A program made the position numbers and the translations under genes. Shown one piece after another: positions 933 to 20,146 of a stretch of DNA of 64,000 nt (position 1 is its first letter; every line of letters starts with the position of its first letter). The DNA is from Halomonas stenophila (GTDB taxonomy: Bacteria; Pseudomonadota; Gammaproteobacteria; Pseudomonadales; Halomonadaceae), in contig NZ_JACHXR010000002.1 of the NCBI RefSeq assembly GCF_014192275.1, positions 186,001 through 250,000 on the forward strand. The letters are read 5' to 3'. The notes under the pieces are model-generated. The model saw only the letters and a list, made by a program, of their open reading frames with translations, did not search any database and was not told where the DNA came from.

Positions 933-933
933 G

Positions 934-1521: not shown

Positions 1522-2592
1522 ATGTTCAGCGGATACCACCAGTCCATCCATAACGCGCGGGATGGTGAGGCCTTGCAGGCCTGGAAGTCCTTCTCGCTCG
1601 CCTACTGGGAAGAGCCGGGTTTCGGGCTGTCCGAGGACCTCCAGCAACGGCTCTTCCATGCCGGCTTCCTGCGCAGCCGCTGGGCGCTGTACGACATGGC
1701 GGAACATGGCGCCGACGGCTACCTCAGTGACTTCCAGGCCATGCGCCTGCAGGCGGCCAATGCCAAGTATCAGACGGTCATGGCCGACCGGGTGCTGTGC
1801 TCACACGTGGTGAGCAACTATTGCCCGGCCCCCGAGATCTACTGCGTGGTCACTGCGGAAGAGGTGCAGTGGGTCGCGGCCCCCTGGTGGCACCAGGACG
1901 ACCATGCCCCGGGAGAATTGATCGTCCACCCCATGCAGAGCGGCGCTGCCATGCCCTATCAGCGGGTGGCATTGCGCGAAGGGCGCTTCCATTCGGCCCT
2001 GGGGGAAGGCGGAAGCGACGAGTTGGTGAGCAACCTGCAGCAGCAGGCACGGCAGCATGGGAGTGCCTATGTGGTGAGCGAACACGTCTCCCAGGGGGCG
2101 TTCGCCGAAACCCTGGCGCCCGGGCACCTGAACCTGCTGAATGTCCTCCTGGTGCGTGAGCAGCACGAATGGCGGCCGCAACTCGCCTCCGCGACCCTGC
2201 TGATCGGTCGGCAGGGCAAGGATGGCGAGGCCGCCTTGCGCGTCGAGGAGGGTGCCCTCAGTGCCGCTATCGACCACCAAACGGGCCTGATCACTGCCTG
2301 CAAGGGGTTGGATGAGGGCCGTCGGGCCTTGACGGACTATGCCGTTCATCCTCAGTCGGGTAGCCGCATCGTGGGACAGTCGCTGCCCGGTTGGCAAGAG
2401 ATACGCAGGATGCTGATGGCCTTCTTCGACGAAGCCTCCTATCTGCGAACGTGCAACCTCTCCTTCGTGCTTACCGACGATGGGCCTTGCTTCTTCGCCG
2501 CCTGCGAGGGGCAACTCGCCACGCACCAGATCCACCGCCCCTTGCTCGATGACCCTTTCATCTCCAGCCATGTCAATCGCTTGGAGTCCTGA
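1522..2592 (+). CDS. Degenerate sugar-transfer-type ATP-grasp-like protein
   Basis: I recognise no named orthologue. The 356-residue protein aligns by eye with the better-conserved ATP-grasp protein at 3779-4930: both have a YLSD-Q block followed by a YC-P block, a region ending in QGAF or QGDF followed by leucine-rich strands, LSA then a G-L/E strand, and a final segment with PLLD. It lacks the glycine-rich nucleotide loop (KPLGGGGGGS in the paralogue) and the final Glu-x-Asn metal site (here FFAACEGQL), so it is probably not a functional ligase. It could act as a substrate-binding or scaffolding partner. It begins three bases after the rfbC stop and overlaps the next gene by one base (TGATG), implying translational coupling. 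Family by pattern only; function unknown. Confidence 0.75.
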   Translation: MFSGYHQSIHNARDGEALQAWKSFSLAYWEEPGFGLSEDLQQRLFHAGFLRSRWALYDMAEHGADGYLSDFQAMRLQAANAKYQTVMADRVLCSHVVSNYCPAPEIYCVVTAEEVQWVAAPWWHQDDHAPGELIVHPMQSGAAMPYQRVALREGRFHSALGEGGSDELVSNLQQQARQHGSAYVVSEHVSQGAFAETLAPGHLNLLNVLLVREQHEWRPQLASATLLIGRQGKDGEAALRVEEGALSAAIDHQTGLITACKGLDEGRRALTDYAVHPQSGSRIVGQSLPGWQEIRRMLMAFFDEASYLRTCNLSFVLTDDGPCFFAACEGQLATHQIHRPLLDDPFISSHVNRLES

Positions 2593-3767
2593 TGCCGACG
2601 CCTGTGACCGACAAGACCAAAAAGACGTTGCTAGAGCTCCTGAAGCATCCGCAAGCCAAGCAGCGCGCCGAAGTCCTGCGAAGTGGCTATTTCAACACCG
2701 AGTGGTATCTCGCCAATCACCCGGAGCTTCAGCAAGACCCCAAGGCACTCCGCGACCCGCTCAAGCACTTCATGGTCCAGGGAGCCAGGCAAGGCCTGAG
2801 CCCGGGGCCAGGCTTTCATACGGCTTGGTATCTCGACGAGTACGAGGATGTCAGAGACTCGGGTATCAACCCCCTGCTGCACTACCTTCGCCATGGGCGG
2901 CATGAAGAGCGGCGCCCCACGCCTCATCTGGCCGGTATCCGCGAGCGCTTGCCCTACTTGAGCGGGGGACGCCATTCACGCGTCATCTACAACACCAAGC
3001 GCAGCGCCGATCTCAGCCACGAGGGGCGCGTCAAGCGGCTGGACATGGCGGAGGGCGTCGAAGCCTGGCGGACTTTCAGCCAGGAGTTTCGCCGAGCGGC
3101 GCCCAGGCTGTCCCACGACGATGCCGAGTACCTGCACAACCGCGGGTTCTTGCCGGACAAGAAGTCGTTGTATGGCTTGCCGAATTCCCAGGCCGATGCC
3201 TACATCAGTGACTTGCAGGCCCAACTGTTGCCACTGGCCAATGGTCATGCCCGCAAGATGCTCGAATCACCCGCCCTGCAATTTCAGCTGTTCAATCGAC
3301 GCGTCCCCATGCGCCCCCCTGGGGAAGGCGACGACTCGGCCCCACGCCTCAAGGTGCTGGTGATGCTGGACCCGGCGCGTGCGGGATTGATTCCCCTGGC
3401 GGCCGTGGTGGCTCGGGCCGAGAGCCAGCATCGCCCCGCCATGAGCCTGAGGCTCTCGCTGAACAGCGGTCGGGTCAAGAGCGTGGTGCGTTACCGGGCA
3501 GGCGGCGTGATCTCCGGCCCCGGACGCCCGAAGCCATGGGAGCGGCGGCGTTACCTCGAGCTCTGGCAGCGCAGCCGAGAGGAGATCCTGGCCGTTATCG
3601 CCCACAAGCCCATCTTCACTTTCGCCCAGCTGGAAATCGATATCTGCGGTACGGCTCCCCGCCTGATCGAGCTACGCAGCCGACCTTGCGGCGCGGCTTT
3701 TCAAGTACATGGTCCCCTGATGCATTCCGAGGCGGCCATCGAATTCATCCGTGAGTTTGGTATCTAG
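2592..3767 (+). CDS. WYL-repeat protein with degenerate ATP-grasp-like domain
   Basis: The N terminus (about residues 30-115) holds two copies of a short module: aromatic-x-TEWYLANHPEL...DPLKHFMVQGARQGLSP, then AWYLDEYEDV...INPLLHYLRHGRHEERRP. The same module occurs in the glycosyltransferases at 20146 and 22172. The rest resembles the 3779 paralogue (YLHNRGFLPDKKSLYGL compared with LLYERGFLPEKIRLYGL, and AYISDLQAQL compared with LYLSDVQRWL). No glycine-rich ATP loop and no Glu-x-Asn metal site are visible, so catalysis is doubtful. Its ATG overlaps the previous stop by one base. Likely role (inference): a partner of the polysaccharide glycosyltransferases that recognises a sugar acceptor through the WYL modules. 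Confidence 0.72.
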   Translation: MPTPVTDKTKKTLLELLKHPQAKQRAEVLRSGYFNTEWYLANHPELQQDPKALRDPLKHFMVQGARQGLSPGPGFHTAWYLDEYEDVRDSGINPLLHYLRHGRHEERRPTPHLAGIRERLPYLSGGRHSRVIYNTKRSADLSHEGRVKRLDMAEGVEAWRTFSQEFRRAAPRLSHDDAEYLHNRGFLPDKKSLYGLPNSQADAYISDLQAQLLPLANGHARKMLESPALQFQLFNRRVPMRPPGEGDDSAPRLKVLVMLDPARAGLIPLAAVVARAESQHRPAMSLRLSLNSGRVKSVVRYRAGGVISGPGRPKPWERRRYLELWQRSREEILAVIAHKPIFTFAQLEIDICGTAPRLIELRSRPCGAAFQVHGPLMHSEAAIEFIREFGI

Positions 3768-3778
3768 GCTGACGAAGC

Positions 3779-4930
3779 ATGAATGAGTTTGCCATCACTG
3801 CGTGCGATCCCGGTGGGTCGGCTCCCTTGCCTGACCTGCCCGAGGACCACCATCGCCACTTCATGGCCAATCTGAGTGGGGTCGAGCGCCTATCGTTGCT
3901 CAAACGTTTCACCCTGGATTTCCATGCCGACCCCGACCTGGGGAAGATCAGTGAAGAGCAGGCCGAGCTTCTCTATGAGCGGGGCTTTCTCCCGGAAAAG
4001 ATACGCCTCTATGGCCTGAACCGTGACAATATCGACCTCTATCTTAGCGACGTGCAACGTTGGTTGACGCGGCTGGTCAACGGGCCCTATAGCATCGTCT
4101 TCAACAATAAAGTGCTCTTCACACAGGTCTTCGGGCGCTACTGTCGGGTGCCCGGTATCATCGCCATCTTTCGTAATGGCCGAGCGATCCCCTACGGCGA
4201 GTTGTGGGATCGGATTATCAGTGGCCAGGACTCAGGCCGTATGATGGTTGCCAAGCCACTGGGCGGAGGCGGTGGTGGGAGCGTCTATTTCATCCGTACT
4301 GACCGGCATCATGCGGTAATAGAGACCAACGATGAGGAGGGGGCCCGTGTCGTCGTGAAGGTCAGCGAGCTCGCCGAAGTGCTCGCGGCTCAAGAGGTCC
4401 CCTTCATTCTCAATGATTACATACAGCAAGGTGATTTTACCCAGGCGTTGTTTCCTCTCACTGTCAATACGCTCAGGGTGCTGGTCATCCGTCATCCCGT
4501 GACGCGCCAAGGACAGGTGATACGTGCCGTACAACGTATCGGGACTAGCGAGTCCTATCCGATCGACAACTTTTCGTTGGGCGGGCTCAGTGCCGAGATC
4601 AATCTTGCCAATGGCGAACTGAGTCATGCCGTCGCTGCTGAAGGCAAGCATGCCGGGAAGCGCTGGGAAAGCCACCCCGACACCGGCGAGAAAATCTCTG
4701 AGAAGAGAGTGCCACACTGGGAGGATATAAAGGCGGATATATGTCGACTCTTCGAAAATCTCCCGTATATAAAATATTGCGGATTCGATCTCATTATTGA
4801 TGATGATGGCTTCATCGTCTTGGAAGGCAATAGTTATAGCCAGGTTCGATTATTCCAGATGAGTAGCCCCTTGCTGGATAACCAGGTGCTGGTGGATTTC
4901 TACAAGAGTGAGGGGTTGCTAGTTACATGA
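3779..4930 (+). CDS. Sugar-transfer-associated ATP-grasp ligase
   Basis: Of the first three related proteins this one keeps the catalytic features: a glycine-rich loop VAKPLGGGGGGSVYF (about residue 158), the strand FILNDYIQQGDF, the NTLRVLVIR strand, and a C-terminal metal-site pattern FDLIIDDDGFIVLEGNSYS (about residues 337-355; Glu-x-Asn). This order matches the ATP-grasp family described as sugar-transfer-associated, found in capsule loci. It should form an amide or ester bond through an acyl-phosphate, but the substrate is unknown. It follows the WYL gene by 11 bases. The end of the gene and the next 90 bases become noticeably more AT-rich. Family fairly sure; reaction unknown. Confidence 0.82.
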   Translation: MNEFAITACDPGGSAPLPDLPEDHHRHFMANLSGVERLSLLKRFTLDFHADPDLGKISEEQAELLYERGFLPEKIRLYGLNRDNIDLYLSDVQRWLTRLVNGPYSIVFNNKVLFTQVFGRYCRVPGIIAIFRNGRAIPYGELWDRIISGQDSGRMMVAKPLGGGGGGSVYFIRTDRHHAVIETNDEEGARVVVKVSELAEVLAAQEVPFILNDYIQQGDFTQALFPLTVNTLRVLVIRHPVTRQGQVIRAVQRIGTSESYPIDNFSLGGLSAEINLANGELSHAVAAEGKHAGKRWESHPDTGEKISEKRVPHWEDIKADICRLFENLPYIKYCGFDLIIDDDGFIVLEGNSYSQVRLFQMSSPLLDNQVLVDFYKSEGLLVT

Positions 4931-5020
4931 TTGATGAGTGAGAAAAAACAAATAAAGTTATTGGCAGGAATGGGGGAGTTCTAGAAAGGCAAATGATGGA
5001 ACGACACGGAGTCTCCAGCA

Positions 5021-6409
5021 ATGATTACTCAAGTTGATATTTTTACATTGAAGAACAAGCCCGTCAGTCGGGCCGACAGGGAGCAGGGTGAGCAGCTCAA
5101 CGGGAGAGAGTCCGAGGAGTATTCCATCTTCTTCAAGGTCGTGGCCGAGGTGGAAGGGAAGGAGTATATCGGACTGGGTGAGGCAAGGCCCTCCAGCATC
5201 AGCTCGGAGACCCTGTCTCGCGCGACTCGCTATGGGAAGAAGCTAGCCCGGGGATTGGCTGGAAAGTCGCTACCCATCCTGGCGGGGGAGCAGGGCTACG
5301 CCCACCAGGTGCATGGAGTGGTACAGCAAGTCGTCAGTGAAATCTTCGGTTACACCGAAGAGGGCAATACCCAGCAGCGTCCCAGCCCCTCGGTCTGCTT
5401 TGCCGCCGAATGTGCCCTGCTGGATATCATCGCCAAGCATCATGGCGTATCGGTTGCGCAGCTGGTATCCGGCAACAGTGAGCGGGCCGTTGTCCGCAAT
5501 GTGTTCAACGACCGGCTCAAGAATACCGAAAAGTTACTCGCCGACATTGCGGATGGCAAGGCCGTGGAAGGCTGGCTGCGGCGTGGGCGCCGCATCGGAG
5601 CCGACAAGGCCAGCGCTCTGGTGAACTCGCTGTTGTTTGCCTTGAAGGACAAGCAGCACTCACTGGAGGGTATCATCCTCAATGCCGGCCAGCGTTGGCA
5701 ATTGGAGGAGTGGAAGCGCTTCTGTGACGAGATCTCGCTGAGCGGACTGACCGAGAAGATGGGCGTCGAAGTCGTGGTGGAAGATCCCTTCGCCGAGATT
5801 TCCGATGCCTTCTATCGCGAGGCTTTCGCCTATGCCAAGGGCAAGCGGATTCGCATCATGCTGGCCAAGCCGGTGTGGGGTGTCGCGTCCGTGCGTACCC
5901 TGGCCCCCTATATGGCCAATGTCGATCTCAAGATAACGCCCCAGAAGGCCGGCGGTTTCCACGAAGTGCTGGAAACCGAGCGCGTGGCCAAGGAACTGGG
6001 ATTCGACGGTGGGGTGTTCCTCGGGAACCTGCAGAATACCTCCAACTTCACCACCTTGACCATTCTGGCGCTTGCCAAGAGCCTGAGTAACTGTCGCTAC
6101 TTCCCGGCCACCTTCAAGAGGGAAAAAAAGGTGCGCCTGGTCCACCCGCGGGCCGAAAGGAATGGCACTCAACTGGTGGCGCCGGAAGGAAGCGGTTGGG
6201 CAACCAATGTATGCCGCTCCGCCCTCAAGCGGCGCCTGATGTTCCACCGGGCCTATGGGGTAGAGGGGCGCCGGCCTGAGCGCGAGGCGCGCAAGTCACT
6301 GCTCAGGAGCGTGTTCGATGATCGCTTCCTCAGCCGTGAATCCGTGGAGAGTCAGCGCTTCAAGTACAGTGACGAAACGTTGGCCAAGGCGCTGCAAGGC
6401 GCCAACTGA
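5021..6409 (+). CDS. Enolase-superfamily protein with lost metal ligands
   Basis: The protein (462 residues) has the two-domain mandelate-racemase/muconate-lactonising layout: a capping domain with GEARPSS, then SVCFAAECALLDIIAKHHGVS, then a barrel with GIILNAGQRW, VVVEDPF, IMLAKPVWGVASV and VDLKITPQKAGG. Compared with dipeptide epimerases, the first metal aspartate is Asn (LNAGQRW instead of a DAN motif), the glutamate of VEDPF is kept, the third site ADE(S) is Ala-Lys, and the later lysine (LKI) is kept. The KxK strand is not evident. It may be a non-catalytic or metal-independent member. Context among amino-acid-ligase folds suggests an ancestor acting as a dipeptide or acylamino-acid epimerase. 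GGAG at about 5009-5012 supports this ATG. A strong terminator follows. Confidence 0.75.
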   Translation: MITQVDIFTLKNKPVSRADREQGEQLNGRESEEYSIFFKVVAEVEGKEYIGLGEARPSSISSETLSRATRYGKKLARGLAGKSLPILAGEQGYAHQVHGVVQQVVSEIFGYTEEGNTQQRPSPSVCFAAECALLDIIAKHHGVSVAQLVSGNSERAVVRNVFNDRLKNTEKLLADIADGKAVEGWLRRGRRIGADKASALVNSLLFALKDKQHSLEGIILNAGQRWQLEEWKRFCDEISLSGLTEKMGVEVVVEDPFAEISDAFYREAFAYAKGKRIRIMLAKPVWGVASVRTLAPYMANVDLKITPQKAGGFHEVLETERVAKELGFDGGVFLGNLQNTSNFTTLTILALAKSLSNCRYFPATFKREKKVRLVHPRAERNGTQLVAPEGSGWATNVCRSALKRRLMFHRAYGVEGRRPEREARKSLLRSVFDDRFLSRESVESQRFKYSDETLAKALQGAN

Positions 6410-6417
6410 CCGATCGC

Positions 6418-6446
6418 GCCGGGCGGAATCATCCGTCCGGCTTTTT
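6418..6446 (+). terminator. Rho-independent terminator after the enolase-like gene
   Basis: A 10-bp stem (GCCGGGCGGA with TCCGTCCGGC, one G-T pair) with loop ATCA is followed directly by five T. It lies nine bases after the stop at 6409 and only 14 bases before the next start codon, so the following ATP-grasp genes depend on read-through or on a promoter I cannot identify. Confidence 0.8.
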
Positions 6447-6460
6447 GACGATGGTGCGAC

Positions 6461-8383
6461 ATGCCGCAAGAGAATTGTAAAGTCAAGCGAATTGAATTGG
6501 TCGCTTACTCCAGACCTCATGCTGAAAGGCTCACCGCAGCGGTCGATAAAAAGGCGGCCAAGGAAGAGGTGAATTACTATCTGAAGGTGACGGTCAGTGC
6601 TCTAGATCGGGAGTTTGTCAGTGCCATAGAGGGAGCGATGGGTCTTCGCCCCGACAAGCCGATGGTCGGTCGCTACTGGGATTATCTCGAGACCGTCGTC
6701 TCCAGGCTGATGGGCAGTCAACTCGATGCCGAGGCCTTGGCCAAGGGGCAACTGGCCAGACACCTTAAAGCCTGGGTTGAGCCCACACTGGAGCTGATCG
6801 ACAACGCCAAGGCGCTTGAGTTGCGCCAGTGGGTCAAGGTCCAGCGTGCGGTTAACAGCATTCACATGGCGCTCAAGCAACTGTTTGCCGATCTCGCTCG
6901 ACAGATTCAGCGGGAAGGTAATGGCGAACAGCCGGCGGAGGAGGTGACTTCAGCAAGCGAGGCGTTGTTCTTCCGCGCCGAGAGGGTGCTCTATCTTCCA
7001 GAGGCGGAAGCGCCGACCTATACCTACCAGCCGCGATTGAAGGATGTTCCACAGGAGCCCTCTCCACCGCTTCACCCCAATGCCTTCGATGATACGCCAC
7101 TGATGCTGCCGCTTGGCACCATGGACGCCAAGAGCCACCTGATGGAGCGCGAGTGCCTGCGCCAAGGCTTCAATGTGCTGCGGACCGGCAAGGGAGTCTT
7201 CACCGCCGACAAGGGAGACCAGCGCTTCTACTTCAAGCTCAGCCGTTCGCCGCTGGTCTCGGTGGATGCCATCGCCTTGTGCACACACAAGGAAGCGACA
7301 CGGGAGTTTCTGGCGCCTCTTGGGTTCCCGGTTCCTCGCGGCAGGATGTTTCCTTCCGGCGATCATGATAACGCCATGCGCTATGCCAACCTGATCGGCT
7401 ATCCGGTCGTGGTGAAACCGGCTACCGGTGTTCGCGGCATCGGGGTGGTACCGAATATTCGCAGCGATGAGGAGCTGCAGAGCGCCTTCCATGTGCTGGA
7501 GTCCAGCAAGCTGGGACACGATGACTTCATCGTCGAGAAGCATATCTTCGGCGAGGATTATCGAATCATGGTGATCGGGGGCAAGGTGCGTGCCGCTACA
7601 TTGCGGGCTCCTGCCTCGGTGACCGGCGACGGCAAACATACTATCGCCGAGCTGATCCTGATCAAGAACCGCTACCGGCAGAATATCCCTCATCTCAAGT
7701 CCCGGCCCATCGTCTACACGGAATCGACCCAGTATCAACTCGACAAGCTGGGGTATACGCTGCATTCCGTTCCCCCCTTGGGCAAGCGGATCAACCTTTC
7801 CGGTTCCTGCAACCTCTCTCAAGGCGGCGACAGCGTCAACGTTCACCACGAGATGCACCCGAGTATCATCAAGGTGGCGGAGGATGCGGTAAAGGCCGTT
7901 CCCGGCCTGGATTACTGCGGCATCGACTTTCTGATCGAAGATCACCGCAAGCCGGTGGGAGAGACCGACATCGGCATCTGCGAGCTCAATGCACATGCCG
8001 CCATCGGGACCGCTTGCTACCCGATGTTCGGTGAGCCCGTGAACGTTCCGCGCCAGGCCATCGAGGCGATCCTGCACAACCAGGGCATGCCATTGACGCC
8101 GCTGGACGACAGTCAGGTCTCGGTGAAGATGAGGGTGCGCGGGAGGGTCACGGGAGTGGGCTTTCGCAAGTGGGTGAGCCGCCATGCGCAGAAGGGGGGC
8201 CTGACGGGCTATGTGAAGAATCGTGACAAGCGCACGGTAGAGGCCGTCTTGCAGGGCTCACTGGTCGCCATTGCCTCACTCGCCACCGCCTGCATTCGCG
8301 GCCCTTCCGAGGCCTTGCCGACCTCGGTCAGGGTCATGCATGTCAAGGAGCCTCTGCACGATGGCTTCACCCTCATACGATAA
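6461..8383 (+). CDS. ATP-grasp ligase with C-terminal acylphosphatase domain
   Basis: A 640-residue protein. Residues 1-170 are mostly helical and unrecognised. Residues about 235-540 are an ATP-grasp domain of the cyanophycin-synthetase/GshF type, with VVVKPATGVRGIGV (about 315-330), VEKHIFGEDYRIMVIGG, SVTGDGKHTIAELI, and GIDFLIEDH followed by a Glu-x-Asn metal site in ICELNAHAAIG. Residues about 555-630 are an acylphosphatase domain, MRVRGRVTGVGFRKW then GYVKNRDKRTVE; both the catalytic Arg (GVGFR) and Asn (VKN) of that family are present. Expected chemistry (inference): amide-bond formation through an acyl phosphate, with the fused domain able to hydrolyse that intermediate. The ATG used follows a terminator by only 14 bases and has no clear ribosome binding site, so the true start could be a little further in. 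Confidence 0.85.
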   Translation: MPQENCKVKRIELVAYSRPHAERLTAAVDKKAAKEEVNYYLKVTVSALDREFVSAIEGAMGLRPDKPMVGRYWDYLETVVSRLMGSQLDAEALAKGQLARHLKAWVEPTLELIDNAKALELRQWVKVQRAVNSIHMALKQLFADLARQIQREGNGEQPAEEVTSASEALFFRAERVLYLPEAEAPTYTYQPRLKDVPQEPSPPLHPNAFDDTPLMLPLGTMDAKSHLMERECLRQGFNVLRTGKGVFTADKGDQRFYFKLSRSPLVSVDAIALCTHKEATREFLAPLGFPVPRGRMFPSGDHDNAMRYANLIGYPVVVKPATGVRGIGVVPNIRSDEELQSAFHVLESSKLGHDDFIVEKHIFGEDYRIMVIGGKVRAATLRAPASVTGDGKHTIAELILIKNRYRQNIPHLKSRPIVYTESTQYQLDKLGYTLHSVPPLGKRINLSGSCNLSQGGDSVNVHHEMHPSIIKVAEDAVKAVPGLDYCGIDFLIEDHRKPVGETDIGICELNAHAAIGTACYPMFGEPVNVPRQAIEAILHNQGMPLTPLDDSQVSVKMRVRGRVTGVGFRKWVSRHAQKGGLTGYVKNRDKRTVEAVLQGSLVAIASLATACIRGPSEALPTSVRVMHVKEPLHDGFTLIR

Positions 8384-8396
8384 AGGCGAGAGACCC

Positions 8397-9584
8397 ATGG
8401 ATGTCAGAATCGATAGCTTCCGGGCACTGCTGGATAGCCTGCCCAGCATCGCCAAGGAAGGGCTGCTGATTCATGCCCAACGCTTGCCGGCCAGCGCTCG
8501 CACTATGCTGCTGCCTCGTCAGCTCGCTTACTACTATGATCGTCACGCCGATGGGGAGTCCGTTGGTAAACCGGCAGGCTTCGTCTGTGGCGTCAGCGGC
8601 CGCAACCTGCTGCCGGCCGTGAACTTCTGCCAGGACATTCGTGCCTGGCGTGCCCGCCTGGAGCGCCACGGCATCAAGGTCGTCAAGGCGGCTTCCTTTT
8701 CTGGGCGCTCGCAGCGCGACCACCTGCGCTATGCCAAGAAGATCGGCTATCCGGTGGTCTTGAAGCCGGTGATTCGCAATACCCTGTACGAAGAGTTCAT
8801 CACGGACATCTCCAACGAAAACGAACTGGAGTTCCTCTTTCGCAAGTCGCGTGAGCTCAAGAAGAACAAGGCCAGTGATCTCACGGCTTCCCCCTACGCC
8901 ATGACGCGTCTCTCGGAAGACCACGTGGACGAACATGGTCGTCGCTTCCTGCCCCTCAGTGTGCGCTACCTGCTGGAGAAGCAGTTGGCGGGTCGACACC
9001 TGCGCCTGATCATGGCCGAAGGCCAGCTGGCGGCGGCCTTCCACAAGCCGCTACAGGACAAGGCCTGGCAACCGGCCGATAACCTGCATGAGAGCTACCG
9101 AGCCCTGGGAGAGAAGGTCGCCAAGGTCATGCAGGGCATGGCCTTCTTGCGCATCGACCTGGTCGTGGAGGATCCGGCCAGCGAAGCCAAGGAGGGTAAC
9201 CACGCGGTCATTTCCCTATCAGAGCACCTCAAGTGCTACAAGCTCTATGACGAGCATCCGGCGGTGACGCAACGGCTGCTGGAGCTGGTGGCAGGTTGCT
9301 CGCCGGATATCTCCCTGGAAACCCCCTTGCAAATCGAGGCGGTGCTGGCCGGTATCAGCCGTGGCGAGCGTCTCGAAAGGGAACTGCGGCGCACCGCTCA
9401 GGCACTGGGGATGGAGCTGGCAATCGAGGAGCTGGATCAGGTGACGGGACGGGTGCGCTTCCATGCCTCGGGGCCGGCCTGGGCGGGTTCCGCCTTGACA
9501 TGGGCTTATGCCAACGGCCTGGGGATCGAAGAGATCCCGACCAGCGTAGATGTCAAGGTGATACGTTCGGGCCGGGGGGGGTAA
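8397..9584 (+). CDS. Inactive-looking ATP-grasp/acylphosphatase-like protein
   Basis: A paralogue of the preceding protein with degraded motifs. The ATP lysine strand VVLKPVIRNTLYEEF lacks the glycine-rich loop, LEKQLAGRHLRLIMAEG is kept, and the metal end reads VISLSEHLK in place of Glu-x-Asn. The last 80 residues follow the acylphosphatase fold pattern (RRTAQALGMEL...TGRVRFHASGP...IPTSVDVKVI) but lack the GVGFR arginine and the VRN asparagine. It probably works as a pseudo-enzyme partner of the active protein upstream. An in-frame opening extends to 8271, but ATG 8397 is chosen because AAGGCGAG (8384-8391) lies just before it and because it starts 14 bases after the upstream stop. It ends one base before the next gene. 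Confidence 0.75.
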   Translation: MDVRIDSFRALLDSLPSIAKEGLLIHAQRLPASARTMLLPRQLAYYYDRHADGESVGKPAGFVCGVSGRNLLPAVNFCQDIRAWRARLERHGIKVVKAASFSGRSQRDHLRYAKKIGYPVVLKPVIRNTLYEEFITDISNENELEFLFRKSRELKKNKASDLTASPYAMTRLSEDHVDEHGRRFLPLSVRYLLEKQLAGRHLRLIMAEGQLAAAFHKPLQDKAWQPADNLHESYRALGEKVAKVMQGMAFLRIDLVVEDPASEAKEGNHAVISLSEHLKCYKLYDEHPAVTQRLLELVAGCSPDISLETPLQIEAVLAGISRGERLERELRRTAQALGMELAIEELDQVTGRVRFHASGPAWAGSALTWAYANGLGIEEIPTSVDVKVIRSGRGG

Positions 9585-9585
9585 G

Positions 9586-13242: not shown

Positions 13243-13249
13243 CTGACTT

Positions 13250-13455
13250 GAAGGGATCATGGGGGGCGGTCTCGGTGAGTCGACGATCTCGTCGAGTTCT
13301 TCCTGGCCGTAGCGACAGGTCTGTGCCCTTCGGCAGGTAGTGCCGCAAGAGACCATCGGCGTTCTCCTTGCCACCTCGTTGCCATGAGCCATGCGGGGCT
13401 GCGAAAGAGATCGCCTTGCCGGTTGCAGACATCATATTCCTTCCCATGAACCCGC
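13250..13455 (-). mobile_element. Decayed IS30-family transposase fragment
   Basis: On the minus strand a short reading reproduces the C-terminal IS30 transposase signature: HGKEY, then after a frameshift [21 protein letters not shown] followed by LPKGTDLS, then after another frameshift [12 protein letters not shown]30 proteins typically read DNGKEF...P(Y/H)[24 protein letters not shown]. At least two frameshifts and the absence of the rest of the gene make it a dead remnant. It lies in the gap between two lower-GC ATP-grasp genes, so it marks a past insertion or recombination event there. I saw no terminal inverted repeats. Confidence 0.75.
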
Positions 13456-13821
13456 TTGCCTCGGTGCTCTGCGCTTATCGGATATCGTGTACCTGAATCC
13501 CGAGCGAGCATCAGTGCCCCGGAGGCAGTAGGACTTTAGAGAACGAACCTGATTCGGGCGTCATCGATGTCGTCAGTCACTGTATTCTTGAAGAATAAGA
13601 TGAGATCGATCTGAAGCAAGAGCAGACAGAGGTCTTCCGCCAGTTGTTCATGAGCGCCTTGAGCTATTGCATACGGATCCCGCAAGGGGTTCGAGCTTAG
13701 GATGCTTGATTCCTGGCAATCATTGCTCTGAGTAGCACATGATTCTTGATAGTGGAGCGTCAGGCCTCGCTGATGCTCGTGAAGGTTTTCTTCTCTCAAC
13801 CCTATATAAAGGAACGTATTG
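13456..13821. other. Intergenic stretch with no convincing gene
   Basis: An 87-codon opening on the minus strand (13536-13799) has no recognisable protein pattern and no clear ribosome binding site, so I do not call it. The stretch probably includes more decayed sequence from the IS30 event and the promoter and leader of the next gene. A TATATAAAGGAAC segment at 13803-13815 supplies the Shine-Dalgarno of that gene. Confidence 0.4.
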
Positions 13822-16407
13822 GTGATTCATTCTAGCCGCTTGAAGAAATCAGAGTACTACGATTACAAGAGATTGGGAAAAATCATTTCTCAGGATCCTG
13901 TGCATGCCACGTTTTCCAACGTTGCCGCATCATTGGGAGTGTCATGCCTAAAGCTGTCTAAATCAGTTTCCATCCTTTCTCAGGACGATGAGTTCGTTAT
14001 TTACCGGCTCAATGAGCCAGGAATCAATTCGATCGTTTCAGCCAAGTTGTGTCGCGACAAGAAGATCGCAAGCGATATTGTCAGAGATGCCGGCATCAAT
14101 GCGCCTGAGTCGTATTCATTTCGCGGTAATAGGAAAGAGCGGGCCTGCAAGATTACCTCGGATTTTTTTCCATGTGTCGTGAAGCCTCACTCTAGCTACG
14201 GTGGGAAAGGAATCTCACTTGATATCGATGACTACGAAAAGCTGTCAGTTGCCTTTGACAGGGCGGCGCTGGAATCAGAAACGGTTATTATTGAAAGGCA
14301 GATAACTGGCGACGATTATAGGTTGTATGTCGTTGATGGCAGCGTTGTTGCGGTGAGTCAAAGGTTTGAGGCTCACGTTGTTGGTGATGGGAAGCACTCG
14401 GTGCGTGAGTTGGTAAATAAGAAGAATAAAGAAAGGAGAAAGAATCCCAGGCTGAGAAAGCTGCTTATAAAGATCGATGATAGAGCCGTCGATATCTTGA
14501 AGGCCCAAGGAGAAACTCTTGGCAATATTCCTGAGAAGGGGAAGGTTGTAAAGTTAAGAGATGTGAGGAATGTGAGTTCTGGAGGCGAAAATCTTGATGT
14601 CACGGATTTTGTTCATCCTGCCTTTTGTGATATTGCGGCGAAGATAAACTCTCTCTTTCCCGGGATCTATTCAAGCGGCATTGATCTGATTGCCGAAGAT
14701 ATAAGGAAGTCCCCCGAAGGCCAAGACTGGGGCTTCATTGAAATCAATATCAACGGTTCCATTGTTCATCACAATCTCGGAAACTTCGACTCCTCCAGGA
14801 ATGTTGCCAAGTCAGCGATATCCGGGCTTTTCTATCCGTCTTATATAAACGATAAAAAAAGCATCACCTTGAGTCTTGAGTATAGCAAGAGTGATAAGGG
14901 CAAGATAGAGGAGTTGCTGGTAAGGGAAACTGCACTACGCGAAGTGGCGGGGGAGGTAGATTTTGGTGAGGAAAAGATCAAGGTAAGCCTTTCTGGAAGA
15001 AAGCAAGCAGTTGACGATATAGTAACGACATTGCAGTGGTTGTTGAAGAAAGAAGTTGATTTGCCGTTTTTAAACAATGGCACCAAGTCGTTACATGGGT
15101 CAAAGGGGTTTTATTCATACAGCGGCGCATGCGTTGCCCAGCCGATCTCCTATGGAGAGAGACGCTCTCTATTTAGTCGATCTTCTGCTTTGCACCAGCA
15201 GTTGATAGTGGACGCTGCCTTGGCGAGAGGGCTTGGTGTCTATCGCGATAATTCAAGATTCATTAGAGTCGAGGGCGGGGAGGAGACGGTCTGGTTCTAT
15301 AATTCAATGCCAGAGATGACAACATACGGCGATCGTTACATCTCCAACAGCAAACATCTTACAAAGCTTTTCCTGTCGTCACTGGGCGTTAGTGTCCCGC
15401 AGGGAAAGGCATTCGGAAAGGAAAACATAGAAGACGCCTGGAGCTTTGCCAAGTCGATTGGGCTTCCTGTTGTCGTCAAGCACTCTGGAGGGAAGGGGGT
15501 AACAGCCAGCATCAAGGACGAGGATAGTTTCAGGTCTGCTTGGCATCATGATGTCAGCAATATAGTCGAGCGTCATGTTGAGGGTGAAAACTTTGGGCTG
15601 TTTGTTGTCAACGGCAGAATAATCTGTGCGGCTAGGCGAGCTCCTGCCTATGTTGTTGGTGATGGTGCCAGCTCGATAAGGGAGTTGGTGAGACAAAAGG
15701 ATAGAAAGCGCAGAAGTAATCCTTATCTAGGGGCCAAGTCGTTTGTGGTCACCGATGAGATGGAAGTGTATCTCAAGTCGCATGGGTTGACTCCTGATAC
15801 AGTAGTGGATGAGGGAAGGAAAGTCCGGGTCACCAGTGTCGCGAGCATCGGCAATGGTGGAGAGAGCCATGACGTGACAGATCGAGTCCACCCTTCGTGG
15901 AGTGATATCGTCAAGAAAGTGCATGGGGCGTTTGCCAGTTGCATTCACTTCGGGGTGAATTTGTTGGCTAAAGATATATCTTTGCCGCCCGAGGATCAGG
16001 AGTGGGCCATTTGTGGCGTCAACACTAATCCGGAAATTGCGATGCATCACTTCCCTGCCTCGGGTGAGCCAAGGGATGCTGCAGGGGTGCTTATTGATCA
16101 TATTATGCAGCGATGCCTGATGCCCACGACGAAGCGGAAGAAAGAGGCTGTTTTTGTCAAGGTCTCCGGCGATGTTCAAGGGGTTGGATATCGGAAATAC
16201 CTGGCCAGGGCTGCCTCGAGGTATGATGTGGAAGGTGGTATTGTAAACTTGGAAGATGGCTCTGTTTACTTTGAGTGCAGAGGCTATAGAAATGCCATTG
16301 ACTATCTCTTGAGCTGTGCACGGATAGGGACACGAAAAGCCAGTGTGGACAAGGTTGAGGTATTAGAGAAGAGTCAAGAGACTCAAGGATTCGACATGAG
16401 TTTCTAA
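13822..16407 (+). CDS. Tandem ATP-grasp protein with two acylphosphatase-like domains
   Basis: An 861-residue duplicated protein. Half 1: ATP-grasp with CVVKPHSSYGGKGIS (about 115), IERQITGDDYRLYVVDG, HVVGDGKHSVRELVNKK, and metal site FIEININGS (about 306), then an acylphosphatase-like segment (about 350-416) without the catalytic Arg. Half 2 (about 490-760): ATP-grasp-like with a shortened loop VVVKHSGGKGVTAS, GVNLLAKD where an Asp is usual, and ICGVNTNPE where the metal Glu is Gly, so probably inactive. It ends in a full acylphosphatase domain (VKVSGDVQGVGYRKY, GGIVNLEDGSVYFE) with catalytic Arg and Asn. The layout is thus active ligase, dead phosphatase, dead ligase, intact phosphatase. 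GTG 13822 is preferred to TTG 13819 because AAGGAA (13809-13814) is then seven bases away. Confidence 0.85.
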   Translation: MIHSSRLKKSEYYDYKRLGKIISQDPVHATFSNVAASLGVSCLKLSKSVSILSQDDEFVIYRLNEPGINSIVSAKLCRDKKIASDIVRDAGINAPESYSFRGNRKERACKITSDFFPCVVKPHSSYGGKGISLDIDDYEKLSVAFDRAALESETVIIERQITGDDYRLYVVDGSVVAVSQRFEAHVVGDGKHSVRELVNKKNKERRKNPRLRKLLIKIDDRAVDILKAQGETLGNIPEKGKVVKLRDVRNVSSGGENLDVTDFVHPAFCDIAAKINSLFPGIYSSGIDLIAEDIRKSPEGQDWGFIEININGSIVHHNLGNFDSSRNVAKSAISGLFYPSYINDKKSITLSLEYSKSDKGKIEELLVRETALREVAGEVDFGEEKIKVSLSGRKQAVDDIVTTLQWLLKKEVDLPFLNNGTKSLHGSKGFYSYSGACVAQPISYGERRSLFSRSSALHQQLIVDAALARGLGVYRDNSRFIRVEGGEETVWFYNSMPEMTTYGDRYISNSKHLTKLFLSSLGVSVPQGKAFGKENIEDAWSFAKSIGLPVVVKHSGGKGVTASIKDEDSFRSAWHHDVSNIVERHVEGENFGLFVVNGRIICAARRAPAYVVGDGASSIRELVRQKDRKRRSNPYLGAKSFVVTDEMEVYLKSHGLTPDTVVDEGRKVRVTSVASIGNGGESHDVTDRVHPSWSDIVKKVHGAFASCIHFGVNLLAKDISLPPEDQEWAICGVNTNPEIAMHHFPASGEPRDAAGVLIDHIMQRCLMPTTKRKKEAVFVKVSGDVQGVGYRKYLARAASRYDVEGGIVNLEDGSVYFECRGYRNAIDYLLSCARIGTRKASVDKVEVLEKSQETQGFDMSF

Positions 16408-16440
16408 TAATATCCACGGCAACGAAAGGAATGCCATTCT

Positions 16441-16466
16441 ATAGAAGCATCGGTGCTCTATTTTTT
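16441..16466 (+). terminator. Rho-independent terminator
   Basis: ATAGAAGCA and TGCTCTAT pair over eight base pairs with one bulged A and a TCGG loop, followed by a run of T (16461-16466). It lies 33 bases after the stop of the tandem ATP-grasp gene, so the next gene probably has its own promoter in the AT-rich stretch 16467-16536. Confidence 0.7.
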
Positions 16467-16548
16467 GGCATCTAATATGGATAAGTCTGATATATCAAAC
16501 GTGCATGTTTGCTTGATGCTTTAACTTGTAAATTTTCAGGAGAGACTT

Positions 16549-17946
16549 ATGGATGATTTTGTTAGCTGGCCGCAACCCTTTTCAGCAACTGCCGTGAAAG
16601 ATGCTTATGGTAAACCCTTGTGTGGTTACTGTATATCTCTGGAGGCCTGGAGAAGAGGGTTGGCTGTTAAGGTGAAGCATGCCGACTATAATAAATATAC
16701 CATATCCAGCAAAGATAAGACGCTGACGTTTAACAAGTCTCTCCTGGTAAAGGATAGAAATCGCATACGAAAGTTGTCCAAGGATAAGCATAGGGTCAAG
16801 GAGCTTTTATCCCAATACGGGGTCAATGTGCCCCGGGGGGAGGTGTTTGGTCCTGATGCCATCCTGGATGATGCACTTTCGTATGCGAAGAGCATTGGAT
16901 ACCCTGTTGTGGTAAAGCCCTTGGTAGGTAGCCTGGGAGATGGGGTTTTTACGAACATTGCAACGGATGAAGAGCTTGTAACTTATTATAAATACCTGAA
17001 GGAAGAGGCGAACGAATCTTCTGTAATCGTCGAAAAACATTTTTCCGGCAATGACTACAGGGCGTTTGTCATTGGTGACGAGGCCGTCGCTATCGTTAAA
17101 AGGATTCCTGCTAATGTCAAGGGGGATGGGAAGAGCACGATAGATCAACTCATCAGCAAGAAGAACGCCTTCAAGAAACTCAACCCCTTCCTGTCGAAAG
17201 GCCTCATCAAGAAAGATAGAGAAGTGCATGATTACATAAACAAGTCTGGCTACAGTCTTGACAGTGTTCTTCCAGAGGGCGAGGTGCTATTTCTCAGGGG
17301 GAAGGCAAATGCATCGGCAGGTGGGGATACCGTTGATTTTACCGATCGTATTCCTCAGAGAGTGAAAGATGCGGCGGTCCTGGCCGTGAAAGCCATAGAC
17401 GGACTTGAACACTGTGGCGTCGATGTTTTATTTGATGAGGAGAGTGAGGAGTACTGCATTCTCGAGCTGAATACAAGAGCTCAGATCGGTGTTAATATGT
17501 ATCCCGTGGAAGGGGAGGGCAGGAATGTTCCAGCACTTCTTGTGGATCACTATTTCCCCGAGTCGAAAGGAAAGAGCGCGAAATTCTCCACTCGCATAGC
17601 TTTCAATAATCAGAAGGTGAGGAATGCCTTGAGAGGAAGCGTCATCGACGAGGTGTCTATCAGCCCGTTCCCCAGGCTCAGCAGCATTCTCCGGAGACGA
17701 TTTGTCTTTTCATGTTCCAGGGTTTCCCCTGCTACGGCATCCGACAGGGTCGCTCGACTGGCTAAACGCTATGGTATTTTAGGATTTGTAAGGTCGCCTT
17801 CCGAAGGAAAGATTGAAGTGGTAGCGGTTGGGGCAAGACAGAAGGTGATCGACTTTAAAAACAAGGCCGTGTCTCGGATGGCGCTCTCCATTGAAGAAGA
17901 AGCGAAGTGGCGTCGTACAGTAAAAAATTGCTTCGAGCGTCTCTGA
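16549..17946 (+). CDS. ATP-grasp ligase with degenerate acylphosphatase tail
   Basis: A 465-residue CphA/GshF-type ATP-grasp protein. Motifs: VVVKPLVGSLGDGVFTN (about 122), VEKHFSGNDYRAFVIGD, VKGDGKSTIDQLISKKN, GVDVLFDEESEEYCILELNTRAQIG (aspartate plus Glu-x-Asn; about 290-315). The catalytic set looks complete. Residues about 384-440 match the acylphosphatase fold (VSPATASDRVARLAKRYG, ILGFVRSPSEGKIEVVAVG), but the GVGFR arginine is absent and VRN is VRS, so that domain is probably inactive. ATG 16549 has AGGAGA five to six bases upstream. The gene follows a terminator and belongs to the lower-GC block. Expected role: amino-acid or peptide ligation, substrate unknown. Confidence 0.85.
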   Translation: MDDFVSWPQPFSATAVKDAYGKPLCGYCISLEAWRRGLAVKVKHADYNKYTISSKDKTLTFNKSLLVKDRNRIRKLSKDKHRVKELLSQYGVNVPRGEVFGPDAILDDALSYAKSIGYPVVVKPLVGSLGDGVFTNIATDEELVTYYKYLKEEANESSVIVEKHFSGNDYRAFVIGDEAVAIVKRIPANVKGDGKSTIDQLISKKNAFKKLNPFLSKGLIKKDREVHDYINKSGYSLDSVLPEGEVLFLRGKANASAGGDTVDFTDRIPQRVKDAAVLAVKAIDGLEHCGVDVLFDEESEEYCILELNTRAQIGVNMYPVEGEGRNVPALLVDHYFPESKGKSAKFSTRIAFNNQKVRNALRGSVIDEVSISPFPRLSSILRRRFVFSCSRVSPATASDRVARLAKRYGILGFVRSPSEGKIEVVAVGARQKVIDFKNKAVSRMALSIEEEAKWRRTVKNCFERL

Positions 17947-17965
17947 CAACATCAAGGGCGGGTAA

Positions 17966-18103
17966 ATGTCACTCGGTCGCCTGTTGAGGATACTTCTTCG
18001 TCAGTTAATAAGGCCGATCATCCGGAAACTCCCCATACCTGTCGTGATTGCCTTGGCGGCGATGGTGTTGTTGCTTATGTTTGTCATCCGTTATTTACGA
18101 TGA
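17966..18103 (+). CDS. Small membrane peptide, 45 residues
   Basis: An ATG preceded by AAGGGCGGG opens a 45-codon frame ending in TGA at 18101-18103. The N-terminal half is basic (MSLGRLLRILLRQLIRPIIR), followed by one hydrophobic span (PVVIALAAMVLLLMFVIRYL), so a single-pass inner-membrane protein with the N terminus in the cytoplasm is predicted. It fits neatly into the 164-base space between two ATP-grasp genes and ends seven bases before the next start. The alternative frame over the same bases gives a cysteine-rich nonsense start for the next gene. Possible role (inference): a membrane anchor for the neighbouring soluble ligases. No family recognised. Confidence 0.6.
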   Translation: MSLGRLLRILLRQLIRPIIRKLPIPVVIALAAMVLLLMFVIRYLR

Positions 18104-18110
18104 GTCTGAT

Positions 18111-19058
18111 GTGAAACAGCTGCTATCCTTTGCTGCGACTGGTACGGCTGCCGGTCGTGTCGTCCCCGCGCCGTTGGTGGCGTTTCCGAGCTTCACCCGT
18201 GTCCTGGCGGAACCGGATTGTCTCTCCTGGATACGTGCCGCGCATCCTGCCCGCAAGGGCACGGCACCTCAGCCGCCATCGTTTCGCGCCGGCATGGATG
18301 CCTTGATGCGTCGCTATCAGCGTGAGGCGAAAATGCCGGGTATCCAGCCATTCAATCGGCTCGCCAATGATCGACGGTGGCTCGGGCAGCGCATGGATGA
18401 ACTGGGCGTCGCCACTGCCCGTATCCTGCGTGACGACTTCCCCCTGCAGAACCTGCGAGAGGCACTGGAGGGCATCGATGAGTGTGTTATCAAGCCCAGG
18501 CAGGCGCATAGTTCGCGAGGCGTGATGTCGTTGCGCCGGGTGGGGGAAGTGACCTTTACCTGTCTACAGCAGCGTCGCGAGCTGCGCCTGGTCGAGATTC
18601 TCGACTATTTGTATCGGGACATGCGTGAGCACCAGTTCCCTAATCACTGGCAGCTCGAGGAGCTGCTGCTTCCGCCTTCCGGGCTATTGCGTCCGGTGGA
18701 TGATTTCAAGTTCTATGCCTTCCGGGGGCGTGTCGGCCTGATCCTGCAGGTGGCCCGGGCGCCGGAAGGGCAACGCTATCGCTGGTACGATCGCGACTGG
18801 CAGCCGGTGCATACCGGCAAGTATGAAGAGGCCCTCGATCCTACCCTGTTGCCGCCGCGTGAACCGGGCGCCATGCTCGCCTTGGCGGAAAGGGTATCGG
18901 CCGTCTTGCCGACCCCCTTCTGTCGCATCGATCTCTACGAAGCGCGCCAGGGTGTCGTGCTGGGGGAACTGACCCCAGAGCCGGGAACCTACCATGCCTT
19001 CGGAGAAAGCGCCGATCTGTATATGGGCGCCATGTTCGAGGTGGCGCAACATCTCTAA
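18111..19058 (+). CDS. TupA-like ATP-grasp protein
   Basis: A 315-residue protein with the pattern of the TupA-like ATP-grasp family (TupA is needed for teichuronopeptide in alkaliphilic Bacillus). Motifs: DECVIKPRQAHSSRGVMSL as the ATP-binding lysine strand, DDFKFYAFRGRVGLILQVAR, YRWYDRDWQPVH, FCRIDLYEARQGVVLGELTPEPGTYHAF. The RIDLY and GELT motifs supply the Asp and Glu metal ligands. The opening runs back to 18048, but that N terminus overlaps the small membrane gene and reads WRRWCCCLCL; GTG at 18111 is preferred, although its ribosome binding site is weak. GC is back to the high level of the flanks. Likely role (inference): adding an amino acid to a carboxylated sugar or polymer. Confidence 0.78.
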   Translation: MKQLLSFAATGTAAGRVVPAPLVAFPSFTRVLAEPDCLSWIRAAHPARKGTAPQPPSFRAGMDALMRRYQREAKMPGIQPFNRLANDRRWLGQRMDELGVATARILRDDFPLQNLREALEGIDECVIKPRQAHSSRGVMSLRRVGEVTFTCLQQRRELRLVEILDYLYRDMREHQFPNHWQLEELLLPPSGLLRPVDDFKFYAFRGRVGLILQVARAPEGQRYRWYDRDWQPVHTGKYEEALDPTLLPPREPGAMLALAERVSAVLPTPFCRIDLYEARQGVVLGELTPEPGTYHAFGESADLYMGAMFEVAQHL

Positions 19059-19081
19059 GCCTTGCCGCAGGTAAGTGGTCA

Positions 19082-20146
19082 ATGAATTTATGGATGAATG
19101 CTCGAGGCACCCTGATGAACAGGGTGCCTGAGTCGCATGACGAGATTTTCAAGTTGATGAAGACCCAGGCCCTGGGACCGCTGCTGATCGCCAGGGAGGC
19201 CGAGGGTGACGGTGCCGAGGTGAAGTGGCTATCACGCTATATGTTCGTGGCCCGGGTGGATGAGGTCGATATCCTGTTTCACGACAGCCGTTCGTTGGAT
19301 ACCACGGTGGCCGCCACCTTTGCGGGCCGTAAGGATCTGACGCGTTTGCTGCTCCAGCAGGCCGGTGTGCCCGTCGCACCGGGGGGAGTGGCCAAGAGTC
19401 TGAGCAAGGTCGAGGCCATGCAGAAGGCGATGGGCTCGCCACTGGTCATCAAGCCGAAGACCGGCACCAAGGGGTATGGTATCTCGGTGGGGGTTCAGGA
19501 ACCCGGAGAGCTCAGGCGGGCATTTCGCCGCGCCAACAAGTCGGATAACGGGGTGTTGGTCGAACGTCAGATGCCCGGCATCGAGTACCGCGTGCTGGTG
19601 GTCGGAGGCGCCGTGGTGGGTGCGTTGGGCAAGGAGGCGGCCCACGTGGTGGGCGATGGCCGCTCCAGCATCGCCGAACTGATCGACGCCAAGAACATCG
19701 AGCGGGCCAAGAACCCTCACCTCTCCACTCGCTTGATCAAGGTGCGTAAGCACATTCGCACCAACCTCGAACGACAGCAGCTCAACGTCGAGAGTGTGCT
19801 AGCGGAGGGAAGGAAGGTGTACCTCCGTCATGAGGCCAACTTCTCCGCTGGGGGCGAGACCCTGGACGTGACCGACGATCTGCCCGAGTCCATCAAGGCG
19901 ATCACCGTGGCGGCGGTGGCGGCGATTCCTGGCCTGGAGCTGGCTGGGGTGGATATCATGCTTGACCCCGACGCAGACGACGCGGCGAAGGCGGCCTGCG
20001 TTCTCGAGATCAACACCAATCCCGGCATCGGCGGCCATCATTTTCCTGCCGTCGGGCAGCCGCGTAATGTGGCCCGTGCCATCTGGCGGCACACCCGGGC
20101 GATGATGACGGCGCGCCTGGCTTGGCGGGAAGGACTCATGAATTGA
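19082..20146 (+). CDS. CphA/GshF-type ATP-grasp ligase
   Basis: A protein of up to 354 residues made almost entirely of one ATP-grasp domain: LVIKPKTGTKGYGISVG (about 120), VERQMPGIEYRVLVVGG, HVVGDGRSSIAELIDAKN, AGVDIMLDPDADD and CVLEINTNPGIGGHHFP. All nucleotide and metal motifs are present and no acylphosphatase tail is fused, so this may be the stand-alone active ligase. Three in-frame ATGs are possible (19082, 19094, 19115). AGG at 19068-19070 favours the first, while 19115 lies in the loop of a perfect hairpin (19105-19129). The last codon overlaps the next gene's ATG (TGATG), tying the ligase cluster to the glycosyltransferase cluster. Confidence 0.85.
   Translation: MNLWMNARGTLMNRVPESHDEIFKLMKTQALGPLLIAREAEGDGAEVKWLSRYMFVARVDEVDILFHDSRSLDTTVAATFAGRKDLTRLLLQQAGVPVAPGGVAKSLSKVEAMQKAMGSPLVIKPKTGTKGYGISVGVQEPGELRRAFRRANKSDNGVLVERQMPGIEYRVLVVGGAVVGALGKEAAHVVGDGRSSIAELIDAKNIERAKNPHLSTRLIKVRKHIRTNLERQQLNVESVLAEGRKVYLRHEANFSAGGETLDVTDDLPESIKAITVAAVAAIPGLELAGVDIMLDPDADDAAKAACVLEINTNPGIGGHHFPAVGQPRNVARAIWRHTRAMMTARLAWREGLMN
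19101..19132 (+). other. Perfect hairpin at the alternative start of the ATP-grasp gene
   Basis: AGGCACCCTG (19105-19114) pairs with CAGGGTGCCT (19120-19129) around the loop ATGAA; three more pairs extend the stem after one bulge. The in-frame ATG at 19115 sits in the loop. No T-run follows. It may hide or present that start codon, or may simply be coding sequence. Confidence 0.45.

Follow-up and report, generated by a model that had tools for sequence, protein, structure and literature searches.

What would ten neighbouring genes with eleven ATP-grasp domains make together? The question is raised by a block (positions 1522-20146) within a 64,000-nt stretch of Halomonas stenophila DNA, here called the window, whose coordinates are used throughout. 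The original prediction was that the block makes amino-acid chains and attaches them to a capsule. Its ten genes were found as open, co-oriented open reading frames (ORFs) at the places claimed, all on the + strand, with the start of the seventh read as 13819. As the explanation that we favour, with somewhat better than even confidence, we propose that the block is the interior of a Kps-type capsule locus, in which an exchanged set of ATP-grasp and Mur ligases builds a short, strain-specific peptide likely joined to the capsular glycan. The block genes, including one for an enolase-fold protein (G4), are numbered G1 to G11 in their order.

Capsule setting and exchange of the block

The region directly upstream of the window contains kpsD-, kpsM-, kpsT- and kpsE-like genes, rmlD and a gene for a dehydratase, which by Pfam family and location is a putative rmlB. 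Within the window, rmlA (39-932, + strand) and rmlC (961-1518, + strand), both named by inspection and from their relatives, precede the block. Poly_export and ABC_tran were matched by Pfam in the upstream region, and the KpsM model (6.6e-32) and the KpsE family (2.8e-78) were hit under their curated NCBIfam cut-offs. Downstream of the block, two Capsule_synth (PF05159) genes are KpsS-like (44052-45470, - strand; KpsS model 7e-75, under its cut-off) and KpsC-like (45358-47373, - strand; called from repeated PF05159 matches, with no NCBIfam hit). Since the named Kps models all scored below their curated cut-offs, the Kps calls are family-level assignments. By this gene content (KpsM/T, KpsE, KpsD and KpsC/S), the block is placed inside an ABC-exported, Kps-type capsule locus, with the rml genes predicted to supply dTDP-L-rhamnose and the kpsD/M/T/E-like genes predicted to export the capsule. 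The block had been described as lying between dTDP-sugar genes and glycosyltransferases, and this holds, with rmlA and rmlC before 1522 and glycosyltransferases from 20140; with export genes on one side and kpsC/S-like genes on the other, the capsule setting is firmer than was claimed. The glycosyltransferase-family genes are five (Pfam; starting at 20140, 22172, 23659, 25884 and 28144; span 20140-29193, + strand), the third also having an AlgX-like domain and the last scoring slightly below the Pfam cut-off.

When G5 was used as a query, nine of 275 genomes of the family, the window's own included, were retrieved at E<=1e-60, and an independent marker, residues 124-391 of G2, retrieved the same nine at E<=1e-15. 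The genes were not scattered: in the neighbourhood comparison that had been suggested as a check, linkage was kept in all nine genomes carrying the marker genes, and the same capsule frame borders the block in each, V. nigrificans being cut upstream by its contig end. Ten loci were compared, namely those of the window, H. maura CECT 5298 (the closest named genome), H. heilongjiangensis, V. nigrificans, five genomes designated G474, G528, G514, G544 and G277, and a Sulfitobacter. The frame recurs as a sugar-transfer-associated ATP-grasp gene (ST), G2 and a second ST gene upstream of the block, and TupA and glycosyltransferases downstream; the first four glycosyltransferase genes recur downstream of the block in sister loci, with the exception of 23659, not found in G277 and G544.

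Between these flanks, nine different interiors were counted in the ten loci. The window and H. maura share an enolase-fold gene, an ATP-grasp/acylphosphatase gene, G6, an ATP-grasp/CapA/Mur gene, a double ATP-grasp/acylphosphatase gene and a single ATP-grasp gene. In H. heilongjiangensis, G6 is followed by ATP-grasp/CapA/ATP-grasp, ATP-grasp/acylphosphatase and two ATP-grasp genes, and in V. nigrificans by CapA/ATP-grasp, double ATP-grasp/acylphosphatase/MmgE/PrpD and enolase/ATP-grasp. The G474 interior consists of genes for an ATP-grasp, a D-Ala-D-Ala ligase (Ddl), a D,D-carboxypeptidase, a Mur/enolase/acylphosphatase fusion and a fusion of a carboxypeptidase end with Mur and acylphosphatase; that of G528 is similar without the Mur/enolase/acylphosphatase gene, and G514, G544 and G277 hold further mixes. 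Sulfitobacter has enolase, G5, G6, CapA and two Mur ligase genes, then two ST genes, a weakly G2-like gene and TupA.

Frame and interior tell different histories. V. nigrificans and G514, of the same genus, are 94% identical in the second ST gene (ST3), 92% in G2, 98% in TupA and 97% in the first glycosyltransferase, against 50% in G5 (ATP-grasp part) and 29% in G6. V. nigrificans and Sulfitobacter share 87% in G5 and 65% in G6, but 54% in ST3 and 46% in TupA. The frame tree (ST3 and TupA) unites the genus of V. nigrificans and G514 (support 84/96, not starred), and a group formed by Halomonas, V. nigrificans and Sulfitobacter is rejected on the frame data (p_AU 0.002). That same group is found in the interior tree (G5 and G6) with support 100/100, where the genus clade is rejected in turn (p_AU 1e-4, its log-likelihood being worse by 680). 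Two cautions apply: the identity table had suggested the interior grouping before the AU test was run, and the Sulfitobacter branch is long in the frame tree. At the DNA level, the window and H. heilongjiangensis align at 77% over 60-11741 and 16547-26394, with no alignment between, and G474 and G528 at 94% and 93% on either side of 5 kb that G474 has and G528 does not. The G+C content is 0.486 in G7, 0.476 in G8 and 0.480 in G9 versus 0.62-0.69 in TupA, G11 and the glycosyltransferases, and the later interior lies below the frame in all eight loci measured (the ten without H. maura and Sulfitobacter), the gap being 0.04 in G474 and G528 and more elsewhere. Constant frame, differing interiors, lower G+C, sharp DNA breaks and conflicting trees thus indicate, from sequence comparison, that strains, and even classes, exchange the ligase block within a frame that stays the same, in the manner of a serotype cassette. 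The K- and O-locus serotype cassettes have constant flanks and a variable, low-G+C interior exchanged between strains, features seen here too; what differs is that the exchanged interior consists of peptide ligases and epimerase folds, not of glycosyltransferases and polymerases.

Some individual genes of these interiors are described here in their own right. V. nigrificans has a 1386-residue protein (L027, 8891-13051, + strand) that joins two ATP-grasp domains, an acylphosphatase and MmgE/PrpD. The gene missing from the otherwise near-identical G528 locus (G474, L028, 10376-13498, - strand) encodes one protein in which a MurF-like ligase is fused to an acylphosphatase and to an enolase domain whose metal ligands are intact. 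In G514, two transposase ORFs of the same start and length were noted (L048 16833-17885; L048 19486-20000 running to L049 538), the second of which separates an enolase N-terminal fragment from the enolase/ATP-grasp gene. In the window, a 576-base gap (13243-13818) between two block genes has, by eye, the look of an insertion-sequence remnant.

Ligase domains and their catalytic residues

The claim of eleven ATP-grasp domains in ten genes stood as regards descent, since all are ATP-grasp-derived, and fell short as regards activity, four being altered at catalytic positions. The search of each protein against family models, suggested as a check, assigned eight domains to the ATPgrasp_ST or cyanophycin type and one to the TupA-like family, and left 2592 with no hit and 8397 below threshold. 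The cyanophycin-synthetase-type domains (Pfam/NCBIfam) are those of 6461, 9586, 13819 (twice), 16549 and 19082. Their clustering is not due to chance: a search of the entire 4.34 Mb genome with the 16549 protein gave eight matches at E<=1e-5, six of which (self included) fall within this 13 kb.

Among the frame genes, G1 (1522-2592) and G3 (3779-4930) are PF14397 members (40.7 and 124 bits). G2 (2592-3767), with no Pfam or NCBIfam hit, combines an N-terminal repeat domain common to glycosyltransferases with a truncated ATPgrasp_ST relative; it was placed by profile comparison with the G3 family (hhalign E 7e-15, prob 98.4), its AlphaFold model (mean pLDDT 50) being unusable. G10 (18111-19058), near the downstream border of the variable block, is TupA-like (PF14305, 85.3 bits with a cut-off of 25) and present in all ten loci. 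In the interior, G5 (6461-8383) has an N-terminal domain, an intact cyanophycin-type ATP-grasp and a C-terminal acylphosphatase. Its first 210 residues (6461-7100) gave no family match and no PHROGs hit, were barely covered by the fold search and reached a probability of 5% in hhalign with the enolase N-terminal part, and their own profile matched only type A loci. The AlphaFold model of G5 (mean pLDDT 65) is good in the acylphosphatase part and moderate in the ATP-grasp part, and no claim on domain contacts is made from it. G6 (8397-9584), placed by weak sub-threshold ATP-grasp family hits and alignment, is a degenerate relative with a counterpart at the same place in ten of ten loci. G7 (9586-13242) unites an ATP-grasp, a CapA (PGA_cap, MslH-like) and a MurF-like Mur ligase domain, so that the CapA/Mur fusion previously called was confirmed by the family scan. 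G8 (13819-16407) carries an intact and an altered ATP-grasp and an acylphosphatase, and its orthologue was seen only in H. maura among the compared loci. G9 (16549-17946) has an intact ATP-grasp with a sub-threshold acylphosphatase-like tail, and G11 (19082-20146) an intact cyanophycin-synthetase-type domain.

The nearest solved relatives of the ATP-grasp domains tested were cyanophycin synthetases, and in CphA, as in G7, an ATP-grasp is coupled with a Mur domain. Both facts would suit a block that makes a secreted or intracellular peptide metabolite, or a cyanophycin-like storage polymer, with its capsule location incidental. We consider this unlikely: the capsule frame borders the block in the nine family genomes, TupA and sugar-transfer ATP-grasps lie within it, and the scanned proteins do not reach the cyanophycin synthetase cut-offs (850-877), the best score, 394 bits for the two domains of G8 together, not being that of a single N-G-M cyanophycin synthetase.

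No adenylation, condensation or carrier domain of nonribosomal peptide synthetases (NRPS) was found among the Pfam hits of the block. The sister loci add Ddl, Mur ligases, MmgE/PrpD, a D,D-carboxypeptidase and enolase domains that retain their metal ligands, and such a content of ligases and epimerase-type folds, with Ddl and Mur ligases in sister loci, fits stepwise peptide making. By analogy, the G474 set of Mur ligases, Ddl, enolase and D,D-carboxypeptidase seems to resemble that for the peptidoglycan stem peptide. Single amino-acid amides on the uronic acids of capsules and O-antigens are known, and beside the Sulfitobacter block there is an ORF whose first residues look, by eye, like a UDP-sugar dehydrogenase. 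The enzymes might then only amidate glycan uronic acids with single amino acids, one ligase per decorated sugar and no chains. This we regard as rather improbable, because up to seven cyanophycin-type domains per locus, the Mur ligases, Ddl, epimerase-type enolase and D,D-carboxypeptidase point to chains and dipeptide units.

For the catalytic residues, the roles of the Lys, Asp, Glu and Asn positions are taken to be those of the ATP-grasp superfamily. When 40 cyanophycin-type domains were aligned, taken from nine loci without the near-identical one of H. maura, the tested positions were kept in 35, and in five of the six from the window; the second domain of G8 is altered (D to N, E to G and R to G). 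G3 keeps Lys159, Asp337, Glu349 and Asn351, which are invariant columns in seven sequences. On profile alignment to G3, G1 has His for Lys in the nucleotide site and has lost the Asp and Glu metal positions. When G2 was compared with the 3779 family, the segment with the nucleotide-binding Lys and the Gly-rich loop was essentially a gap. G6, read by eye, is without the glycine-rich loop, and at its metal positions type A copies are without Glu and Asn and type B and C copies without Asn. The predicted tally is therefore of six domains with every checked catalytic residue, one probable (TupA) and four degenerate.

Degenerate domains, together with the odd gap at 13243-13818 and the transposase copies in G514, could suggest a decaying relic scarred by insertion sequences and without a working pathway. 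To this we attach very little probability: every ORF of the window's block is open, the block proteins are 96-99% identical to those of H. maura over the whole block, and the same degenerate G1, G2 and G6 recur in every halomonad locus over the stretch examined, V. nigrificans beginning at its contig end inside G2. From this recurrence, a binding or partner role for G1, G2 and G6 is probable.

Epimerase-type folds, acylphosphatases and the proposed assembly

The enolase-fold protein noted earlier, G4 (5021-6409, + strand), is a real, stand-alone gene and part of the type A interior, and two of its three metal-ligand positions are replaced. It is rare: of 7,998 candidates scored out of 5.8 billion sequences, 21 proteins reached E<=1e-3, one of them its own record. 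The DANQGW-type motif reads NAGQRW and the ADES-type motif AKPV. In 19 of 20 aligned sequences the first metal-ligand Asp is Asn, the most distant (P0021) keeping Asp; the third position is mostly Ala, Ser or Gly, and KxK is not kept. With its Asp metal ligands and catalytic lysines lost, G4 was ruled out as a working dipeptide epimerase. The fused enolase domains of V. nigrificans, G514, G277 and G474 keep all three metal ligands (motifs LD[LM]NEA, [IL]EQP, MADES and KxGG), the Asp/Glu/Asp ligands and late lysine of dipeptide epimerase all being present. In KxK, Arg takes the place of the first Lys. The structures that these domains match are of muconate cycloisomerase and dipeptide epimerase. 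It is thus plausible that the fused forms epimerise, and doubtful that G4 does.

The closest solved relative of the G7 CapA domain is MslH, the structure chain being taken as such because its residues match the numbering in the available text of PMC10406935, where MslH is described as a metal-dependent peptide C-alpha epimerase. By alignment, the domain keeps six MslH positions (Glu44, Asn87, His88, Asp91, His261 and His295) and differs in having Cys for the His259 metal ligand; no lasso peptide genes were seen among the families scanned. MslH Asp11 falls outside the alignment, and a GDT motif is conserved in five close CapA domains. In H. heilongjiangensis the C-terminal module of G7 is an ATP-grasp instead of Mur.

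Acylphosphatase domains occur on ATP-grasp, Mur and MmgE proteins. Those of G5 and G8 have the fold together with the Arg and Asn presumed to be catalytic. Depending on the protein that carries it, such a domain may remove misloaded acyl phosphates by hydrolysis or have a binding function.

The best reading of these data remains the predicted, ligase-based assembly of short, partly epimerised peptides for the capsular glycan. Each intact ligase would activate a carboxyl group as acyl phosphate and add one amino acid, as cyanophycin synthetase does, the chain growing residue by residue, with epimerising modules (fused enolase, MslH-like CapA and MmgE/PrpD) acting in some strains. The constant, intact G3, G5 and TupA would account for the links that every strain shares, either the first residue or the link of peptide to sugar, and the variable ligases would extend the chain differently by strain. 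From the constancy of these three, attachment by G3, G5 or TupA to a glycan that probably contains rhamnose is suggested. A fused acylphosphatase would, according to the protein, either clear stalled or wrong acyl phosphates by hydrolysis or bind the chain, and the part of the degenerate ATP-grasps would be that of binding or scaffold partners.

Several observations weigh against this assembly. Of the eleven ATP-grasp domains, four look inactive and that of TupA was assessed from its family match and its conservation, not residue by residue; the stand-alone enolase lacks two of its metal ligands. Both acylphosphatase catalytic residues are kept in 11 of 20 domains, and five of five type B and C copies of G5 are without them; with nine of 20 domains affected, editing cannot be the general rule, and acylphosphatase proofreading is weakened as such. 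The G+C of G4-G6 (0.59-0.62) does not share the low value of the later interior. In Sulfitobacter the frame genes stand in another order, with a weak G2 counterpart. Lastly, attachment to the glycan is drawn from gene neighbourhood, and the product could be a separate peptide molecule.

A bolder proposal, which we hold tentatively and at a little less than even confidence, is that capsule serotype is written here in peptide, not sugar. A fixed capsule machine would be combined with interchangeable, NRPS-free ATP-grasp/Mur cassettes with epimerase and acylphosphatase (proofreading) modules, each giving its own D/L peptide coat, and swaps would change recognition by phages and predators. Amino acids on bacterial capsules are known; to our knowledge, the assembly of longer peptide decorations is poorly known. 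If the assembly is as proposed, nature offers in these loci a library of modular peptide ligases that need no template and vary in order and content by strain, and the ligase-residue code would be directly readable from near-identical loci differing by one module, such as G474 and G528. The loci would, moreover, supply new ligases and peptide epimerases and exemplify peptide-borne surface variation.

Known systems, distribution and neighbouring genes

The teichuronopeptide of alkaliphilic Bacillus is a surface polymer joining amino acids and uronic acid, and its TupA-family ATP-grasp in a surface-polymer locus is paralleled here; the differences are that TupA is one among eleven ATP-grasp-derived domains, that the ligase block is swappable and that the export locus is of Gram-negative Kps type. 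The CapA (PGA_cap) domain and a Mur-family ligase recall the poly-gamma-glutamate capsule (CapBCA/PgsBCA), although here the Mur domain is MurF-like and the system lies in a glycan locus; the CapC family was absent from the Pfam hits of the genes scanned, no model search having been aimed at it. Cyanophycin synthetase, according to the available text of PMC9262961, adds Asp to the chain end by its ATP-grasp and Arg to the side chain by its Mur-like domain, via phosphorylated carboxylates. CphA1/CphA2 share with our block the ATP-grasp type and the pairing of ATP-grasp with Mur ligase, and differ in that here many separate genes are involved, CapA stands between ATP-grasp and Mur in G7, acylphosphatase tails are present and scores lie far under the cut-off.

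Also related are the ATP-grasp peptide-ligase operons of the Aravind group, whose linked ligases are held to attach one residue after another, for teichuronopeptides and O-antigen among other products (PMC4431377). The idea of a ligase operon is hence not new, but the available part of that source describes neither a capsule frame nor exchange, and neither acylphosphatase fusions nor the present set of genes. Judged by titles and the starts of abstracts, the present gene combination was not found among the open-licence papers listed. As far as these papers go, what is new is the capsule frame with an exchangeable ligase block, the fusions of acylphosphatase, enolase-fold and ligase domains, and the conserved degenerate partners.

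The enolase profile matched eight of the 275 family genomes at E<=1e-3, four at full length; of the four partial ones, three are among the nine and one (G398) is not. Across 274 genomes of the window's class, the enolase gene gave its own match and one weak hit, and no other full-length G5 was found among 295 genomes of the family of Sulfitobacter. A phylum search with G2 matched 42 of 398 genomes; among the matches listed, those other than the own one span only the N-terminal repeat region (approximately model positions 6-135). Plasmid searches gave 130 records for G5, none covering 80% of the query, with most of the 30 listed annotated as cyanophycin synthetase or GshAB, and four records for G3 at 27-29% identity. 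A Microvirga plasmid protein with CapA and ATP-grasp was discarded for its different neighbourhood, as were genome G837, with an ATP-grasp/acylphosphatase gene and no frame within the 40 kb examined, and the weak enolase matches L012-L014, with no frame or block genes nearby (BLAST).

Finally, the capsule region contains, between the glycosyltransferases and the kpsC/S-like genes, a large single polyketide synthase (34182-41846, - strand) with ketosynthase, acyltransferase, dehydratase, reductases and carrier, which possibly provides a lipid anchor or modification; an aminotransferase gene (32824-34185, - strand) adjoins it. Next to the kpsS-like gene lies that of a sulfatase-family (PF00884) protein (41639-43867, - strand), which may modify the surface glycan.

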